A DNA stretch of 26,238 bases. It comes from a virus. Made by a program: the position numbers and the translations under genes. Location: positions 1-26,238 of the IMG/VR virus record IMGVR_UViG_3300017782_000184; one strand, 5' to 3'. The notes under the pieces were generated by a model. It made no database searches. It had not been told where the DNA came from and saw only the letters and a list, made by a program, of their open reading frames with translations. Positions 13,514 through 21,709 of the stretch are shown here, one piece after another. Positions within the stretch are counted from its first letter, which is position 1. Each line of letters begins with the position of its first letter.

Positions 13514-14032
13514 TTAATGACTATGCATTTCTGATGCAAGAATTTTAAGTTCGGTAACAGGCACGTTTTCTATGATTTCTTTTTCAAACATAACATCGTA
13601 ATGTGTTACTGTTCCGTCATCTAATAATGTATGCTGTTCTGGTATACAAGTTCCAATTCCATACTCTTTATGTTCTACTTTAGATGCACAATCATGAGAC
13701 TTCTTTTTCTTTTTTACGTCTTTTTCTTTAATCACTTTAGATTTATCTTCATTGTCAGCGTGGTCGTGCATTTCACTTGCAAGAATCTTGAGTTCGTTTA
13801 CAGGATAATTCTCGACTATGTAATTATCAAACTCTACATCATAATGAGTTACAGTACCGTCTTCTAGCATTGTATGTTGTTCAGGTATACAATACCCAAT
13901 ACCGAACTCTTCGCTCTTAACTTTAGATGCACAGTCATGAGATTTCTTTTTCTTAGGAGCCTCAGAGATTTCTTTTCTACCAGAGACAACTTTAAGAATT
14001 GAGTTTAATAAGTCTTGATTAGTTTCTTTCAT
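13514..14032 (-). CDS. Tandem-repeat protein with two SH3-like-patterned domains
   Basis: This 172-residue protein is made of an N-terminal tag (LLNSILKVVSG, shared with the downstream gene), then two copies of a 65-residue domain at residues 27-91 and 108-172, joined by an acidic/basic linker. Each copy reads KKKSHDCASKV, then F/YGIGxCIPEQHTxLxDGTV, THYDVxF, an I(V/I)EN segment and (V)xELKILASEMH. The G-x-G, DG turn, YDVxF strand and VP-x-x-ELKIL pattern resembles small SH3/Tudor-like barrels such as the UvrD C-terminal domain. That is a fold guess, not a family assignment. The paired Cys residues and terminal His residues (SHDC, SEMHxH) could bind metal. The start has a good Shine-Dalgarno (ACAGGAGAA). 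Confidence 0.8.
   Translation of the reverse strand: MKETNQDLLNSILKVVSGRKEISEAPKKKKSHDCASKVKSEEFGIGYCIPEQHTMLEDGTVTHYDVEFDNYIVENYPVNELKILASEMHDHADNEDKSKVIKEKDVKKKKKSHDCASKVEHKEYGIGTCIPEQHTLLDDGTVTHYDVMFEKEIIENVPVTELKILASEMHSH
13517..13954 (-). repeat. Tandem intragenic duplication (two 195-bp units)
   Basis: The two domain copies map to 13760-13954 and 13517-13711, offset by 243 nt. Protein identity is high (SHDCASKV, CIPEQHT, DGTVTHYDV and ELKILASEMH are all repeated), while the DNA has diverged at third positions, so the duplication is not recent. Confidence 0.85.
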
Positions 14033-14616: not shown

Positions 14617-15204
14617 ATGTTCGATAATATTTTACTTCAAGGTCTTCGTCAAGGAATTACGCCAGCTAGAACTAAGGCCGCAAGGTCATGGTATCGTAAT
14701 CTGGCGTCTGAATATACAAGAAAGATATCTCCATCTGAGGCATTAAAGAGAACAGCACCTGTAAGAAAAGTAGATAGAATAAAATTTGGCTACATGTACG
14801 CATTCAAGTATGACCCTAAGTTAAAGAAGACTTTGCCATACTACGATACATTTCCTTTAATATTTCCTATAGACTTTCAGAAAGGTCATATGCTAGGAAT
14901 TAACTTTCATTATTTACCTCCACCTCTTCGTGCAAAACTGATGGACGCAATTTATCCCACAGTTACGAATAGAAAATATGATGAGACTACGAGAGTACAA
15001 ATTTCTTATGGCATATTAAAAAGTGCATCTAAATATAAAGCATTTAAGCCTACTGTAAAAATGTATTTGCCTAATCATATAAGGTCGCAGTTCATAGAGA
15101 TATATGCTACTCAATGGGATTTAGCATTGTTTCTTCCAACTGCATCTTTCAGAAAAGCACCAATCTCAAAAGTTTGGGAAGACTCAAGAAAGAGAGCAAG
15201 ATGA
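14617..15204 (+). CDS. Conserved T4-like phage protein, possibly head/DNA-end related
   Basis: This 195-residue protein starts at ATG 14617 (MFDNILLQGLRQG). An in-frame TTG at 14584 has no supporting signal. Basic and aromatic-rich, it carries SWYRNLASEY, FGYMYAFKYDPKLKKTLPYY, TFPLIF, a FHYLPPPLRAKLMDAIYPT stretch, LSYGIL-type and WDLALFLP segments. I recall this pattern as a small conserved protein of marine T4-like phages sitting near gp4 and gp53. Some annotations call it a DNA end protector, but I cannot confirm similarity to T4 gp2. Its stop overlaps the next gene's start (ATGA), so it is translated with the tube-like gene. There is no Shine-Dalgarno before the ATG; a CATAAATA box lies only 5 nt upstream. 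Confidence 0.75.
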   Translation: MFDNILLQGLRQGITPARTKAARSWYRNLASEYTRKISPSEALKRTAPVRKVDRIKFGYMYAFKYDPKLKKTLPYYDTFPLIFPIDFQKGHMLGINFHYLPPPLRAKLMDAIYPTVTNRKYDETTRVQISYGILKSASKYKAFKPTVKMYLPNHIRSQFIEIYATQWDLALFLPTASFRKAPISKVWEDSRKRAR

Positions 15205-15806
15205 ATCTAACACAATTTAAAACGAATTTAAAAGACGTAGTATATCCAAATCTATTTCAGGCACGTCTTGCAATTTCTCAGAACTTAGCGAATAAGTTAA
15301 ATGATGTAGTAGTCGCTAGAGATTTTGTAAATTCATTTCCGTTTCGTTGCGAGTCTGCCAGCTTTGCAGGTAAAACAATTACTACAGGAATAAATCAAGG
15401 TGCTGGAGGACTTGCATTTAAAACTCCTATAGAAGTCGTATATGGAACAACAGACATTTCTGTCATCTGTTCTTCTGATATGGTCGAAAGAGAATTTTTT
15501 GAAGAATGGCAAAACATTATTATAGGTCACCCTCGTAGAGATGCAGACCAAAGAGGGCTTGTAGAATTTTATCAAAACTTCGCTGAAGGTTGTGAACTAA
15601 CTGTTTCTCAATTTGATGCAAGTTTTAAAAATGTTGTTTATGCAGAAAGATATTATGACGTTTTTCCTGAGTCAGTTTCGCCACTTCAAGTAGCATGGGA
15701 AACTACAAACTCATATCAAAGATTTGGTGTAACTTTAGCATATAGATATTATGATACTGTTGTGCCTGAAGGACGAGTTGAAGTTGGAGATTTACAATTT
15801 GTATAA
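15201..15806 (+). CDS. Tail-tube family protein, probably tube initiator gp54
   Basis: This 201-residue protein starts at ATG 15201. The frame is open further upstream, but that extension lies inside the previous gene. Tube-family traits are visible: YPNLFQARLA near the N-terminus, FPFRCESASFAGKTI (compare T4 gp19 FQCKATALPAG), the GTTDISVICSSDMVEREFFE stretch with EWQNIIIG, and a C-terminal YQRFGVTLAYRYYD ending strand. T4 gp19 is 163 residues and gp54 320, and both share this fold. Because it sits with baseplate genes and the true tube gene normally lies beside the sheath gene, gp54 or an equivalent tube initiator is the likelier role. The ATGA overlap couples it to the gene before. Confidence 0.75.
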   Translation: MNLTQFKTNLKDVVYPNLFQARLAISQNLANKLNDVVVARDFVNSFPFRCESASFAGKTITTGINQGAGGLAFKTPIEVVYGTTDISVICSSDMVEREFFEEWQNIIIGHPRRDADQRGLVEFYQNFAEGCELTVSQFDASFKNVVYAERYYDVFPESVSPLQVAWETTNSYQRFGVTLAYRYYDTVVPEGRVEVGDLQFV

Positions 15807-15828: not shown

Positions 15829-16554
15829 ATGAAATTACCTACGATTGAAACACCAATCTTTTCTCTTACATTACCATCAACAAAGGAAGAAATTCAGTTT
15901 AGACCTTTTCTCGTAAAAGAGCAAAAGATTCTAATGATGGCTGTGGAAAGTGGAAACCCTAAAGAGATTATGACAGCACTTAAAAAAGTCTGCGGTCATT
16001 GTGCAATCACAAAAATAGAACTGAACGAACTGCCGTCTTTTGATTTAGAATATTATTTTTTGAATCTTCGTGCAAAGTCAATCGGAGAGGAAATAGAATT
16101 AAATCTATCTCATCAGAACGGCTCTACATGTGAGCATGTAACAAATAAGAAATTAAATTTACTTGACGTAAAGATAATTGAAAACAAAGAACACAAAGAT
16201 AATTTTCTGATTGACAAGGAAAGAAATCTAGGCGTGAAAATGAAATATCCTCAGATTGATTCTAACATCTTAGATGACATTGAGAAAAAGAGTGAGATAG
16301 AGATAGCGACTGAGGCTGTCATAAACTGTGTAGATTACATCTATGATAAAGACCAGATGTATAAGGGAAAAGATTATAGTAAAGAAGACTTGTTAGAGTT
16401 TTTTGAGAATCTTACTCAAGACCAGTTTCAAGGAGTTGCATCTTTTTTTGATACCATGCCTAAGCTGAAACATGTAGTCAAGTGGAAGTGTCCAAAATGT
16501 GGCAAAGAAGATGAACTTGTTTTGGAGGGCATCGGAAATTTTTTCGCCTTTTGA
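15829..16554 (+). CDS. 26: Baseplate hub/assembly protein gp26 (T4_baseplate family)
   Basis: This 241-residue protein (T4 gp26: 208) is recognised by LPTIETPIFSLTLPSTKEE and IQFRPFLVKEQKILMMAVES at the N-terminus, then LPSFDLEYYFLNLRAKSIGE at about 68-87. That is the standard signature of the T4 gp26 family. A CPKCGKE zinc-knuckle-like motif (C221, C224) lies near the C-terminus, followed by VLEGIGNFFAF. Residues 190-215 form the conserved LTQDQFQGVASFFDTMPKL helix. The gene has a Shine-Dalgarno (AAAGGATAAT). Its final codons contain two overlapping -1 slippery heptamers, and its stop (TGA) overlaps the next ATG. Position before the tape measure suggests a tail-assembly-chaperone-like role. 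Confidence 0.88.
   Translation: MKLPTIETPIFSLTLPSTKEEIQFRPFLVKEQKILMMAVESGNPKEIMTALKKVCGHCAITKIELNELPSFDLEYYFLNLRAKSIGEEIELNLSHQNGSTCEHVTNKKLNLLDVKIIENKEHKDNFLIDKERNLGVKMKYPQIDSNILDDIEKKSEIEIATEAVINCVDYIYDKDQMYKGKDYSKEDLLEFFENLTQDQFQGVASFFDTMPKLKHVVKWKCPKCGKEDELVLEGIGNFFAF
16536..16545 (+). other. Candidate programmed -1 frameshift site, gp26 into gp51-like ORF
   Basis: Read in the gp26 frame the bases are A AAT TTT TTC. A-AAT-TTT and T-TTT-TTC are both X-XXY-YYZ heptamers. A -1 slip continues as CGC CTT TTG ATG into the downstream ORF without meeting a stop. The fusion would have 239 gp26 residues, three junction residues (R-L-L) and 70 downstream residues, 312 in all. No strong downstream stem was seen by eye. 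Confidence 0.55.
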
Positions 16555-16766
16555 TGGGCAATGAAACATTAGCTAATTATTACAAAACTAATTTTGCATT
16601 GATCCATCATCACAAATACAGTTTGTCAGAAGTCGAAAACATGATGCCATTTGAGAGAGACATTTACATTCTTTTACTTACGCAATGTCTAGAAAAAGAG
16701 AACGAAAGAATCAAGGCACAAAACAAAAGACAGAGTTCCAGTAATAGAAGTCTGCCTAGAGTGTAA
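16554..16766 (+). CDS. Small gp51-like baseplate hub assembly / chaperone ORF
   Basis: This 70-residue ORF starts at an ATG overlapping the gp26 stop (TGATG), so it can be made by translational coupling. It may also be made as a gp26 fusion through the slippery site upstream. The sequence NYYKTNFALIHHHKYSLSEV, then a short MMPFERDIYILLLTQCL helix and a charged tail, has the pattern of the second tail-assembly-chaperone domain in other phages (short Y/H-rich helix, then a P-(F/W)-E-(R)-x-x-Y motif). In marine T4-like phages this position is usually labelled gp51. T4 gp51 is 249 residues, so the name is positional. Expected role: helping hub or tape-measure assembly. Confidence 0.7.
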   Translation: MGNETLANYYKTNFALIHHHKYSLSEVENMMPFERDIYILLLTQCLEKENERIKAQNKRQSSSNRSLPRV

Positions 16767-16781
16767 GAGAGAAAACTTAGC

Positions 16782-17075
16782 CTAGTATTTAAGTTCTGGA
16801 AAATCGTCTAGGTCTAAGTGCATCTCATAATAAGGTTTTGATTTTCTCTTCACTATTGGAAGAGACTTTTTCATAAAATCGTCCCATTCCCAATTTTGCA
16901 ATTTTTCATGAATCACTTGATGAACTGGACTCGTTGCTATAACTCCTATATCAACTTCACACCAACTTTCGTGGTCAATTTCTCCATTCACTTTTAATGA
17001 TGCCGCAAACAAAGTATCATTAACTAGTTTGTAGGCACTACCTGTTTCATCGTGAAATAAAATCATTTCTTTCAT
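16782..17075 (-). CDS. Hypothetical small acidic protein
   Basis: Not recognised. This 97-residue soluble protein has strands MILFHDETGSAYKLVNDTLF and VDIGVIATS, a Trp-rich middle (WCEV, NWEWDDFMKK) and an acidic end (HLDLDDFPELKY). The start is supported by GGGAGA 5-10 nt upstream. It is the second gene after the minus-strand early-type promoter at 17325-17352 and lies 12 nt after the gene at 17088-17294. It ends 15 nt from the convergent gp51-like gene with no hairpin between. Probably a host-interaction or other early accessory gene, by context only. Confidence 0.7.
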   Translation of the reverse strand: MKEMILFHDETGSAYKLVNDTLFAASLKVNGEIDHESWCEVDIGVIATSPVHQVIHEKLQNWEWDDFMKKSLPIVKRKSKPYYEMHLDLDDFPELKY

Positions 17076-17087
17076 CTTTTTCTCCCT

Positions 17088-17294
17088 TTATAAAGATAAA
17101 TCAGTTCTAAGATTGCAAGGATCATCTTGCTCACTCATAAGTACTCTGTCAATAATCCAGTTAGTAATCTGGGCTCTTTTTCCATCAATCATAATGTGGG
17201 CTTTCTTGTCAATCCAATGTAGTGTGCTGAAATTAGCATTGACTAACTCTATGATGCGATTAACTGAGTTGTTATTTAAGTCTATTGTTTGCAT
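17088..17294 (-). CDS. Hypothetical small protein, first gene of minus early cassette
   Basis: Not recognised. This 68-residue protein contains VNRIIELVNANFSTLHWIDK, MIDGKRAQITNWIIDRVL and an acidic end. The same kind of short segment (NTSFTDLVWEIDDHA, then SDGRPDAI) appears in the divergent gene at 17457-17816: an N-x-x-F-x-x-L-x-W-x-I/D-D/K stretch followed by DGR/K. The two may therefore be distant relatives. Start support is strong: AACAGGAG 7 nt upstream and an early-type promoter 31 nt upstream. Confidence 0.7.
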   Translation of the reverse strand: MQTIDLNNNSVNRIIELVNANFSTLHWIDKKAHIMIDGKRAQITNWIIDRVLMSEQDDPCNLRTDLSL

Positions 17295-17324
17295 TTTTTT
17301 CTCCTGTTATTTAACTACACTACT

Positions 17325-17352
17325 AGTATATCAAACTGAAAATAGAAGTCAA
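17325..17352 (-). promoter_or_regulatory. Early sigma70-like promoter (minus), class B
   Basis: The minus strand reads TTGACT (17352-17347), 16 nt, TATACT (17330-17325). The spacer ends in CAGTTTGA, shared with the promoter at 22385-22412, and a GTGTAGT start region follows the -10. It drives the two small minus-strand genes below 17295. Confidence 0.7.
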
Positions 17353-17393
17353 TAAGTTTCTGTAAGTAGCTAAAAAACAACAATAAAAACTTG

Positions 17394-17421
17394 TTGACAT
17401 TCTCCGACAGTTTGCTATACT
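17394..17421 (+). promoter_or_regulatory. Early sigma70-like promoter (plus), class A
   Basis: TTGACA, 16 nt, TATACT, with CAGTTTGC before the -10. The leader AACGATAACAAAA follows. The promoter and leader are nearly the same as those at 22894-22921. It is divergent from the class B promoter 41 bp away and drives the genes at 17457 and 17829. Confidence 0.75.
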
Positions 17422-17456
17422 GATTCTAACGATAACAAAAACACAAGGAAACAAAT

Positions 17457-17816
17457 ATGAAAAAAACACTTACTACAGCACAACAAAAAGCGTATGCTAA
17501 AATTCTCAATACATCATTCACCGACCTTGTATGGGAAATCGACGACCACGCTACCACAACGTCAGATGGTCGCCCTGATGCTATAACCCTCGAAGCAATT
17601 GCGAAGGACAACGAAGATTTATTCATTGATTATTTTGAAAGTTTTGTAAGTTTCCCTAGAATCACTACGGGCGAATTTATTGACTTTTTAGAAGAAATGG
17701 CAGAAGCAAAGCATTTGCCTAACAGGAATCGTGAGAAAGTTATCGCTGGTCTCAAAATTGATATCGAGGAAGTTTACGAGATATTGAATCGTGAGTTAGA
17801 CAAAAAATTAGTATAG
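17457..17816 (+). CDS. Hypothetical acidic protein in plus early cassette
   Basis: Not recognised. This 119-residue, acidic, predicted helical protein reads AQQKAYAKILNTSFTDLVWE, IDDHATTTSDGRPDAITLEA, IAKDNEDLFIDYFESFVSFP and a Glu-rich end. The Shine-Dalgarno AAGGAA lies 7-12 nt before the ATG, in a leader that starts at the class A promoter. An acidic small protein driven by a strong early promoter would suit a host-takeover or DNA-mimic role, but there is no direct evidence. Possible distant relation to the divergent 68-residue gene is noted there. Confidence 0.75.
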   Translation: MKKTLTTAQQKAYAKILNTSFTDLVWEIDDHATTTSDGRPDAITLEAIAKDNEDLFIDYFESFVSFPRITTGEFIDFLEEMAEAKHLPNRNREKVIAGLKIDIEEVYEILNRELDKKLV

Positions 17817-17828
17817 GGAGAAACAATT

Positions 17829-18206
17829 ATGGCATTTATCAGCACAGCAGAAGTAAAAGAGATACGCAACGCACTCAAGAAAGAATTTCCAGAGTTTCGT
17901 TTCGGAGTAAAGAAAAGACATTATCATGCAGTTGACATTACAGTTAAGAAAGGTCCTGCACTCAAAGATATACCATTCGATTCTAGAGGCTACGCACAAA
18001 TTAACGAGTATCATCTAGACAACTATGGAAAAAGTAAAAAGTTTCTAGAGAGAGTCGTTAAGGTAATTAAGACTGCACCTGCAAATGCTAAAGGAGGTAG
18101 CGAGTGGTACGACAACAGCAATGCTATGATAGATTACTTTGACACAGCATTTTACTTTTCAATTAAGATAGGATATTACAACAAAGGATATGAAGTTGTA
18201 AATTAA
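17829..18206 (+). CDS. LPD29-like domain protein
   Basis: This 125-residue protein matches my recollection of Large Polyvalent-protein-associated Domain 29. It has an N-terminal FISTAEVKEIRNALKKEFPE stretch, then KKRHYHAVDITVKKG, a short YAQINEYHLDNYG, VVKVIKTAP and the hallmark DNSNAMIDYFDTAFYFSIKI, followed by GYYNKGYEV. The domain occurs alone or within huge polyvalent proteins of phages and mobile plasmids; its biochemical role is unknown to me. It lies 12 nt after the 119-residue gene with GGGAGAAAC as Shine-Dalgarno, and the two-gene unit ends at the hairpin terminator at 18229. Confidence 0.75.
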   Translation: MAFISTAEVKEIRNALKKEFPEFRFGVKKRHYHAVDITVKKGPALKDIPFDSRGYAQINEYHLDNYGKSKKFLERVVKVIKTAPANAKGGSEWYDNSNAMIDYFDTAFYFSIKIGYYNKGYEVVN

Positions 18207-18316: not shown

Positions 18317-21300
18317 ATGAGTCCAATCATAGGAGTAGCGGCAAGACAAATTACAAAGAGTGCCGTTAAGGGATTAAAAAAACAAGGGAAGCAAATAGGC
18401 GGTTCTATATCTGATGTATTTTCATCTAGAACAGCAGGTATATCATCTATAATGGAAGCAGGTTCAAGAGCAAAAGGTGGAATGGAAACCGCTATAAAAG
18501 AAATTAAAAAAGAAGGTGAAAAAAATAAAAGACAAAATGCAAGAGATAAAAAAGAAGATGCTAAAACTAAAGCAGAATTTTTAGCACAGTCTCAAGAGAG
18601 TAATTCGCTATTAGGAAGAATTCTTGATACTCTTAAAAAAACTTTCAAACAAGATAGAGAACTTGCTGATAATAATGGTGATAATGGTGATGATAAAAAA
18701 GGTTTCTTTTCAACTCCATTAGGAAAAACAATATTAGGAGTATTAGGTGTCGCAAGTGCTGGTGGTGTGGCAGCCTCGATGATTTCTAGAGGAGGTGGAA
18801 GAAGAACTTATAGTCGTGCAGGACATCGCACATCGTATTTGGCAATGAGTACTCCTCAAGTTGGAAATAAAAGTGTCACAGCTAGTACTGAAAATAGTGG
18901 AGCCGAAATCGTGCGAAGCAAGACTCAACTAGTAGCCGATATAAAATTGCAAGACGCAAATATAAAGTCGCAAAAAATATTACAAAAAATAGAAAAGTCA
19001 AATAATACTATTGCACGTTCTACTCGGTATCTCTCATCACAAAAACAATTTCAAGTTCGCAGAGTAAAACGCAAACGTCCAGAGGAGATGACAACCTCTG
19101 AATATGTTAAGTCTGCTGAAAATCAAACCTCACTCAACTTAGATAGAATTACTGAAGGTGTTGTTAAAGGTATTCTCTCAGATAAAGTTTTAGATTTCTA
19201 TGGTGGTCGCAGAGGTGTAACTGAACGTCAAGCGAGTAGGCGTGGTTATGCTGGACAAGAACTCGGTGAGATATTAGATTTAAGAGAAGGCTCAACTAAA
19301 CTCGGTGAAAAATTATTCGGAAAAAAATATGGTAAACGATACGCACAAGAGTTTAACAAATTAGGTCAAGTCTATTTACAAGCATTCACAGAAAGAACAG
19401 CAGATGCAGTATTCAGTTCCTTTGGTGGTACGCAAGAAGAAAACAGAACACTACTCTCACAGGTAGTTGGCAACTACGCAGGAGGAAATAAAAAACTTGC
19501 CAAAGAGCAACTCATCTATAAGTTCACAGGAATACCTACTGGTCTTGAATCGTTATCTCAAACATTTGGTTTTACTGGCACAGGCAACGCTGTTGATTTC
19601 TTAGCCGACCAAGCTGGTTCGATTGTTGGTGATATCTCTCGTAATGTGTTGGGTGTTGATTTGTTCGGAATGGGCAAACAAGCTAAAGTAACTGCGAATA
19701 AACCTGATGGTGATTTAACACATGTGAAAAGTATTAAAGGTGCAATGATGGTGCATGTAGTAAATGGTCAGCAACAACCTATAAGAAGTGGCGATGGCAA
19801 CTTTGTCAAATCTGTAATGAATACTTCTTCTGACTATGGTAGTTTTATTAGAACTCCTATGTTCAACAACACTCAAATTAAAGCAAGAGAGGGAATTAAA
19901 CAAAAAAGTCGTGACTTTGAACAACAACAACAAACACAGAATTTAGAGAACATTGAAAGTACGTCACAAAGCAACACAAAAGCAATTGTTGAAACGCAGG
20001 CAAAAGGAACATTCGCTCTACTCGATGGTCTTCGTAATCTAGGCAGAAACATTTTTCATTCTATAGCTTCTATGACGAGTAGAATGGGTGGAGGTGGAGG
20101 AGGTGGCTTTAACATACCAGGCATGTTTGATACTGGTAATATGTTTATGAATGCCGCTACTCAAATTGGTAGTGCTTATGCTATTAATTATGCAACAAAA
20201 GGAATAAAAGACCCTGCATTGAGGGCTGCCGCACAGATTGGTGGTCAACTTGCTTTTAACAAATACGTCTTGCCTAAGATATTCAATAGTGCCGCTGGAA
20301 GTTCATTCATGAGTTCTTTTGGTAGTCAAGGATTTACTAAAGGATTTACAACTGGTATTCAAGGCGGCTCTTCATTTGTTGGTGCTTCTACTTCTTATAA
20401 TGTAGGAGTAACGGCTGGTAAAGTGGCTCCCTACGCTGATGCAATCATTAAACTTGCTCAAGGTGATGTAAAATCTGCGGCATTCTCTGCTATGGGGACT
20501 AAGATTGGTTTGGTAGTAAGTGGAGGTAATCCTATAGGTGCTGTAATTGGTACTGTTATAGGTAACTTTGTTGGAAGTCTTGTAGGTAAACCTAAAAAAC
20601 CTAAGCCTCATATAAGAAGTGACTATGCTATAGTTTTAGAAGGTAATAATAATCCAGATGCGGCTCAAGAAGTCTTTACACATAATCGTATGAATTTATA
20701 TAATCCAGAAATGGTGCAAAATGTTTCGGACCTCGCTCGTAGATTGACAATAGCGGCTTTCAATGCGGCGAAAATCATAGAAGCAAATACAGGTCAAAAA
20801 TCTGTTGGTACTCACATATACATCATGGTTGATGAGATAACATTTAAAAAGAGAGGTGCTGTACAAATTAAGTTTTTACAAGAGCCTGAATACAAAGGAG
20901 AAAGACGTTTAGTTCAAGGTGCTTTAGGTACTCCTGATTCTTCTAAGATGGAGTTTGGTGTTACTGATAGAATTACAGAAAAAACTCTTCCTTACTATGC
21001 GGCTAAAATTGTTGAGTTTGTAAAGCAAGCCTATAAGAAGAATCTAACAGTAGATGAGCAAAGTAAAGTAGAAAAAGCAATTCAAGATAATCTTAGAAGA
21101 GTAAATACAGAAACACTTACGACAGGTCTTGTTTCCTCTCTAACTTCAGGTGAAACTCGCTTAAACCCTAATCTCTCTAAAGGAATTTACGGCAAAACCG
21201 CAGATGTTGACACTCATATGCAATCAATGGTCGAAACTCTGAATGCAAATAGACCTAAAGAGGATTCAATGGGAAGAAAGATGGTGTTCTCTATGAAAGA

Positions 21301-21709
21301 TAACAAATATGTTGAGGCGCCTTTTACATTTAAAACATCTAATCAAGGTCATTTAGGACAAACTGTTACAACGAAAGTTTACAATGGTAGTCTTATTGGA
21401 ATTGATTCACAGGGTAATGAAATTCACAACGCTGAAGGTGGTTATGTATTTGCGAAAAATGAAAGTGGAACACATGGCACAAGAAGAACGGCTTCAGTAA
21501 TTGATTTGAGTGATATGATTAGACACAATGAAATAAATCCTTTAGTGACTGATGTTGTTTCAGGTGACCAATCATTTTTATCTCCAAATGAGTCTGCTCC
21601 TGTTAATGTTGTTACAGATAATTCATCACAAACGAATCAGCCTATAACGATTGTTAATAATAATATTACTTCCTATGATGCAATTCGTTTTTCAGATGTT
21701 AATGGATAA
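18317..21709 (+). CDS. Probable tail tape-measure protein (gp29 position)
   Basis: This 1130-residue protein is the next plus-strand structural gene after the gp26/gp51 pair, where tape measures normally lie. T4 gp29 has 590 residues and I see no direct alignment. The N-terminal ~125 residues are highly charged and helical. A hydrophobic segment with small residues (GKTILGVLGVASAGGVAASM) lies at about 136-155. A long helical, Arg/Gln-rich region follows (to ~580), then a glycine run near 590 and Gly/Ala-rich hydrophobic stretches at about 600-760 (PIGAVIGTVIGNFVGSLVGK). The C-terminal third (770-1080) looks folded and globular (HIYIMVDEITF, FLQEPEYKGERRLV). The end is Asn/Thr/Val-rich. Shine-Dalgarno: GGGAGA. 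Alternative: another large tail-internal protein. Confidence 0.65.
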   Translation: MSPIIGVAARQITKSAVKGLKKQGKQIGGSISDVFSSRTAGISSIMEAGSRAKGGMETAIKEIKKEGEKNKRQNARDKKEDAKTKAEFLAQSQESNSLLGRILDTLKKTFKQDRELADNNGDNGDDKKGFFSTPLGKTILGVLGVASAGGVAASMISRGGGRRTYSRAGHRTSYLAMSTPQVGNKSVTASTENSGAEIVRSKTQLVADIKLQDANIKSQKILQKIEKSNNTIARSTRYLSSQKQFQVRRVKRKRPEEMTTSEYVKSAENQTSLNLDRITEGVVKGILSDKVLDFYGGRRGVTERQASRRGYAGQELGEILDLREGSTKLGEKLFGKKYGKRYAQEFNKLGQVYLQAFTERTADAVFSSFGGTQEENRTLLSQVVGNYAGGNKKLAKEQLIYKFTGIPTGLESLSQTFGFTGTGNAVDFLADQAGSIVGDISRNVLGVDLFGMGKQAKVTANKPDGDLTHVKSIKGAMMVHVVNGQQQPIRSGDGNFVKSVMNTSSDYGSFIRTPMFNNTQIKAREGIKQKSRDFEQQQQTQNLENIESTSQSNTKAIVETQAKGTFALLDGLRNLGRNIFHSIASMTSRMGGGGGGGFNIPGMFDTGNMFMNAATQIGSAYAINYATKGIKDPALRAAAQIGGQLAFNKYVLPKIFNSAAGSSFMSSFGSQGFTKGFTTGIQGGSSFVGASTSYNVGVTAGKVAPYADAIIKLAQGDVKSAAFSAMGTKIGLVVSGGNPIGAVIGTVIGNFVGSLVGKPKKPKPHIRSDYAIVLEGNNNPDAAQEVFTHNRMNLYNPEMVQNVSDLARRLTIAAFNAAKIIEANTGQKSVGTHIYIMVDEITFKKRGAVQIKFLQEPEYKGERRLVQGALGTPDSSKMEFGVTDRITEKTLPYYAAKIVEFVKQAYKKNLTVDEQSKVEKAIQDNLRRVNTETLTTGLVSSLTSGETRLNPNLSKGIYGKTADVDTHMQSMVETLNANRPKEDSMGRKMVFSMKDNKYVEAPFTFKTSNQGHLGQTVTTKVYNGSLIGIDSQGNEIHNAEGGYVFAKNESGTHGTRRTASVIDLSDMIRHNEINPLVTDVVSGDQSFLSPNESAPVNVVTDNSSQTNQPITIVNNNITSYDAIRFSDVNG

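Follow-up and report, generated by a model that had tools for sequence, protein, structure and literature searches.

A gp26 and gp51-like gene pair of a T4-like virus as a probable tail chaperone gene expressed by -1 frameshifting

Organization of the gp26/gp51-like locus

The analyzed stretch of viral DNA, hereafter the window, has a length of 26,238 nucleotides (IMG/VR record IMGVR_UViG_3300017782_000184, positions 1 to 26,238). It contains a gp26-like orf of 241 aa (15829–16554, plus strand) that corresponds to the short chaperone form, TAC-N, and matches Pfam family PF12322 (T4_baseplate, E = 3e-59) and phrog_150 (baseplate hub, E = 1.5e-60). The 3′ end of this orf reads GGA AAT TTT TTC GCC TTT TGA, with the stop codon TGA at 16552–16554 on the plus strand. 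Two overlapping slippery heptamers, A_AAT_TTT (16536–16542, plus strand) and T_TTT_TTC (16539–16545, plus strand), precede the stop. Both of them are in phase with gp26 (16536–16545), as was claimed in a previous reading of this DNA made from the sequence only; the distance of five codons to the stop given there was loose, since just two sense codons (GCC TTT) separate the A-site codon TTC from TGA.

The second orf lies in the -1 frame, which is open from 37 nt upstream of the gp26 stop through position 16766. A -1 slip that bypasses the gp26 stop codon would lead into a continuation of 73 aa (16545–16766, plus strand) with the gp51-like domain, TAC-C (phrog_634, baseplate hub assembly catalyst, E = 2e-26). 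The 312-residue fusion proposed in the sequence-only reading could be reconstructed from the sequence as join(15829..16545,16545..16766), i.e., 239 + 73 residues, and the peptide spanning the joint is ...GNFFRLLMGNETLANYYK. The second orf also has start codons of its own in the window, TTG at 16551 (71 residues) and ATG at 16554 (70 residues). The latter overlaps the gp26 stop (TGATG) and may give a minor separate product of 70 aa (16554–16766, plus strand). It should be mentioned that positions 239–278 of phrog_150 match the second orf; because this family reaches into the gp51 domain, some of its members carry both gp26 and gp51 parts.

Two CxxC pairs in the gp26-like protein, CGHC near residues 55–58 and CPKC at residues 221–224, look zinc-binding. 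The second pair is kept by T4 gp26, and most cyanophage copies have NPKT at this place.

A tail tube protein gene (15204–15806, plus strand; phrog_45, tail tube, E = 2.5e-25) is located directly upstream of gp26. The region between the gp51-like orf and the next large orf (16782–18206) is occupied by small orfs, four in all with a pair on each strand; one of them, a 125-aa orf at 17829–18206, matches LPD29 (PF18847, E = 9e-10) and phrog_10415. The large orf itself (1130 aa, 18317–21709, plus strand) begins 1.55 kb past the gene pair and is a tape-measure candidate by its position and size; curated family searches gave it no match, to a tape-measure family or to any other. The identity of the tape-measure gene that the sequence-only reading placed downstream is thus unproven. 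Relatives of the 1130-aa orf lie downstream of the equivalent gene pair at two other loci (L002 and L003), and a large orf downstream of the pair in Cr30 matches the tape-measure family phrog_794 (E = 3.5e-9). In several annotated relatives (P-SSM2, EniLVp02, Mendera and K491) a large orf directly follows gp51. Elsewhere in the window, a 172-aa orf on the minus strand (13514–14032) contains two tandem copies of a segment of about 60 residues (KKKKSHDCASKV...GTVTHYDV...PVTELKILASEMH).

Conservation of the slippery site

We collected gp26 loci from IMG/VR contigs, using three queries, and from named phages. In total, 252 loci were obtained and de-duplicated to 182 unique junctions; these sequences are related, and counts over them do not represent independent events. 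Loci of CBA120, PWKp5, T4, RB69, CBH8 and Octan were also collected and were left out of the 182 because they do not have the joined T6 arrangement.

T_TTT_TTN was found in the gp26 frame, 7–13 nt upstream of the stop, in all 182 junctions, including those of Prochlorococcus phage P-SSM2, Caulobacter phage Cr30, Delftia phage PhiW-14, Vibrio phages EniLVp02 and K491, Stenotrophomonas phage Mendera and Rhizobium phage IG49. The -1 frame was likewise open in every junction, and in all 176 closed cases it extended 166–214 nt past the stop. The frame relation suggested by the sequence-only reading therefore holds across the related gene pairs, with no close relative among them in which the heptamer was absent or out of frame. 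The last position of T_TTT_TTN varies (C in 101 junctions, A in 64, T in 16 and G in one); the A-site residue can thus be either Phe or Leu, and the slippery bases stay constant.

Only one of the two heptamers is conserved. The codon preceding the T run is AGT in 134 of the 182 junctions and AAT in just 21, which rules out A_AAT_TTT as the working heptamer and leaves it an incidental feature of the window. The previous claim of two canonical signals thus stands for T_TTT_TTC and falls for A_AAT_TTT.

Synonymous constraint was scanned in 53 representatives with less than 80% identity, over 235 gp26 columns. The slip codons 237–239 were among the five most constrained columns; their z values were 17.4, 6.6 and 4.9, and the remaining columns had a median of 0.4. 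The value of 17.4 is inflated by the inertia of serine codons; yet all 53 codons in this column end in T. Some nine codons upstream of the slip site, a Ser/Asn codon at residue 228 of the window gp26 also showed AGT/AAT beyond the prediction from codon use (z = 13.9), an excess that may reflect the same inertia.

Taken by itself, the heptamer of the window is suggestive only, because seven in-frame X_XXY_YYZ heptamers occur in its gp26 (mean of 2.9 after codon shuffling), two of them being other T6 runs, and because T_TTT_TT appeared within the last eight codons in 1.15% of the codon shuffles. It is the conservation that settles that the site is programmed. The invariance of T_TTT_TTN and the synonymous constraint also speak against the reservation, made in the sequence-only reading, that the T run could be a chance feature of AT-rich DNA.

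The same results bear on the reading in which gp26 and gp51 are two separate genes, the second of them being translated by termination-reinitiation at TGATG and the T run being incidental. The overlap of ATG 16554 with the stop codon in the window is what such coupling would use, an ATG is found in the right stretch in 92 of the 182 relatives, and P-SSM2 and others are annotated as having two genes. Nevertheless, in the stretch that begins at the heptamer and extends 45 nt beyond the stop, 79 of the 182 junctions contain no ATG, GTG or TTG, and in a further 11 the sole candidates are GTG or TTG; an invariant heptamer with synonymous constraint would moreover be unexpected. We consider this reading very improbable as an account of the gene pair. 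The coupling that the sequence-only reading had named as possibly sufficient to express the second orf may still serve as a minor route in the window.

Two groups of relatives differ from the arrangement with the conserved heptamer. In the Ackermannviridae phages CBA120 and PWKp5 an unannotated gp51-like -1 orf is kept after gp26, and the T6 run is replaced by ATT TTC, which would yield a U_UUC tetramer; these two phages count against the frameshift reading. In T4, RB69, CBH8 and Octan gp26 and gp51 are separate genes.

Putative stimulatory elements

A Shine-Dalgarno-like GGAGGG (16524–16529, plus strand) is located 9 nt upstream of T_TTT_TTC and is a probable 5′ stimulator of the -1 shift. 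Such elements stimulate -1 shifts at a spacing of 9–14 nt (PMC5009743). In the window GGAGGG is the only SD-like sequence nearby. Its distance of 24 nt to ATG 16554 is too large for initiation, and its position relative to the heptamer is right for a -1 shift, which again argues against reinitiation. An SD-like 4-mer was present at the equivalent offset in 44 of the 53 representatives, as compared with 5.8% of random gp26 windows. Codon choice within the element was also biased: GAG was used in 29 of 43 cases vs 24% elsewhere (p = 1e-9), and GGG/GGC in 26 of 52 vs 22% (p = 6e-6).

Downstream of the heptamer, after a 6-nt spacer, the window may form a stimulatory stem (16552–16609, plus strand; predicted RNA fold of -14.5 kcal/mol, z = -2.6). 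Among the 53 representatives, the 64 nt following the heptamer had a mean fold z of -1.47 relative to shuffles, vs -0.20 in gp26 bodies (Mann-Whitney p = 2.5e-9). The structures differ by lineage, and no single conserved stem was revealed, which rules out a universal downstream hairpin. Two lineage hairpins, both separate from the window stem, were recognized: H1, of 8 bp and separated from the heptamer by 5 nt, in 22 of 118 distinct sequences, and H2, of 11 bp, in 38 of 118. In the 8-bp hairpin paired changes were found at two pairs; by cells there were six against 1.7 in shuffled data (0/500), and by pair count only two against 1.1 (96/500). Judging from these folding predictions, the downstream stems are likely stimulators, although not proven ones.

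Relationship to T4 gp26 and gp51 and the predicted structure of gp26

Pfam family PF12322 is present in both T4 proteins, covering the whole of gp26 and residues 1–201 of gp51 (E = 4e-52), where it is followed by the gp51 C-terminal domain. In profile alignments, residues 8–247 of T4 gp51 matched columns 14–282 of the fusion, the alignment running ungapped through the slip joint (hhalign E = 2.6e-18), while T4 gp26 matched only the first part of the fusion (5e-24); T4 gp51 aligned to gp26 with 1e-12. Since gp51 aligns across the joint and gp26 only with the first part, T4 appears to carry both frameshift products as two genes. Thus, the fusion and T4 gp51 share PF12322 and the additional C-terminal domain, and the two systems differ in that T4 has separate, divergent genes without frameshifting, whereas the window has one frameshifted pair. 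The existence of the fused form as a single gene in T4 is a further point against reinitiation. T4 gp26 and gp51 have been listed as hub assembly chaperones (PMC3004832), and marine gp51 has been described as devoid of about 200 N-terminal residues (PMC3037559). The marine T4-like gp51 looks truncated because the missing part is gp26, to which it would be joined by frameshifting.

The AlphaFold model of gp26 has a pLDDT of 91. Its best alignments in the PDB were with 3FGX (Z = 8.0), YqbN (Z = 7.8) and HK97 gp13 (Z = 7.5), over residues 1–94; these were followed by 5IR0 (Z = 4.3) and an unrelated entry (Z = 2.6). The tool itself rates Z values of about 8 as middling, and taken alone they would be weak; the Foldseek E-values to PDB entries were also weak (0.58 for HK97 gp13). 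The PDB entry of HK97 gp13 is entitled a tail assembly chaperone, and we take 3FGX and YqbN to be phage chaperone relatives as well. Lambda gpG was not in the list of this structural search, and its absence is uninformative. Scans with Mu gp41 and P2 gpE returned few or near-identical sequences and hence no useful profile for comparison.

Discussion

With high confidence, we interpret gp26 and the small gp51-like orf as one gene with two chaperone forms, TAC-N and, by -1 frameshifting with the probable help of stimulators, TAC-NC. The assignment to a TAC-N/TAC-NC pair follows from the alignment of T4 gp51 across the joint and from the best matches of the gp26 model, HK97 gp13 and YqbN. The slip direction, the site and the fusion proposed in the sequence-only reading, which compared the pair with the phage genes G and GT, are backed by (i) the heptamer together with the open -1 frame, (ii) the junctions that do not have a start codon, (iii) the codon constraint, (iv) the homology to T4 gp51 and (v) the chaperone-like predicted fold of gp26.

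We infer that most ribosomes would end at the gp26 stop codon and produce the 241-residue TAC-N, while in a minority of them the tRNAs on TTT and TTC of T_TTT_TTC would slip back by one base, and translation would continue to 16766 to give the 312-residue TAC-NC. The rate of slipping would be raised by GGAGGG and probably also by the downstream stem-loop. By analogy with gpG and gpGT of lambda, many short and few long copies may coat the tape-measure protein, the extra C-terminal domain of the long form may recruit tail-tube subunits, and both forms would depart before the virion is completed; in lambda, neither the G nor the GT product is found in virions (PMC5009743).

Transcriptional slippage on the T run, by which RNA polymerase rather than the ribosome would yield both forms, could draw on the six T present in all sequences, but it is likewise very improbable: six T is short for slippage of RNA polymerase and most relatives have just six or seven in a row, the codon phase of the run is constant, and ribosomes are what the SD-like element and the stems downstream of it act on.

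The proposed ribosomal frameshifting in the window resembles that of lambda G/GT and P2 E/E+E′, for the latter of which a -1 shift is annotated, in that the first orf would be left close to its end. The pairs of lambda and P2 are flanked by genes for the tail tube and the tape measure, and that of the window by its tail tube gene and, further downstream, the tape-measure candidate. The proteins of lambda and P2 belong to different Pfam families (PF06894 and PF10109 vs PF12322), and their first proteins have 140 and 91 aa as compared with 241 aa for gp26; the slippery sequence here is T_TTT_TTN. In its putative layout of an SD-like element, a slippery heptamer and a downstream stem-loop the signal is similar to that of Escherichia coli dnaX (PMC5009743; PMC3711429), from which it differs in the heptamer (A_AAA_AAG in dnaX) and in the variability of the stem between lineages. 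There is a slightly better than even chance that the T4-like signal represents a dnaX-like three-part module, with SD-like GGAGG about 9–14 nt upstream, T_TTT_TTN, and a lineage-specific stem-loop about 6 nt downstream, and that in Tevenvirinae it has been replaced by gene duplication resulting in an unfused short gene 26 and a fused long gene 51.

Frameshifting is reportedly conserved in several groups of T4-like phages, with T4 using genes 26 and 51 instead, according to work by Vladimirov, Gautam and Davidson from 2022. This work (Virology 2022, 566:9-15; pmid 34826709), on the TAC genes of T4-like phages, is cited for poly-T slippery sequences in T4-like TAC-N genes (PMC12846349) and for the occurrence, in some T4-like phages, of a short and a long gene that do without frameshifting (PMC10274946). 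As far as these citations convey it, the gene pair of the window is the same, its frameshifted arrangement has been on record for T4-like phages since 2022, and the window adds one more case. Of the suggestion that frameshifting would recast the gp26/gp51 pair, the chaperone part is supported and the novelty is not. In at least one GenBank entry, that of Octan, the name 'tape measure protein assembly chaperone' is already given to gp26 and gp51. The SD-like element and the hairpins as stimulators may be fresh detail beyond this known work.

The absence of a start codon for the -1 orf in 79 of the 182 junctions makes annotators use an internal ATG for gp51, as in the S-RIM2 record, or omit the gene, as in the ACG-2014d record. 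With the pair divided in public records, or gp51 given an internal start or dropped, annotations do not show the long chaperone. For work on the tuning of tail assembly in viruses that are abundant in the ocean, the frameshift signal described here offers a ready target.
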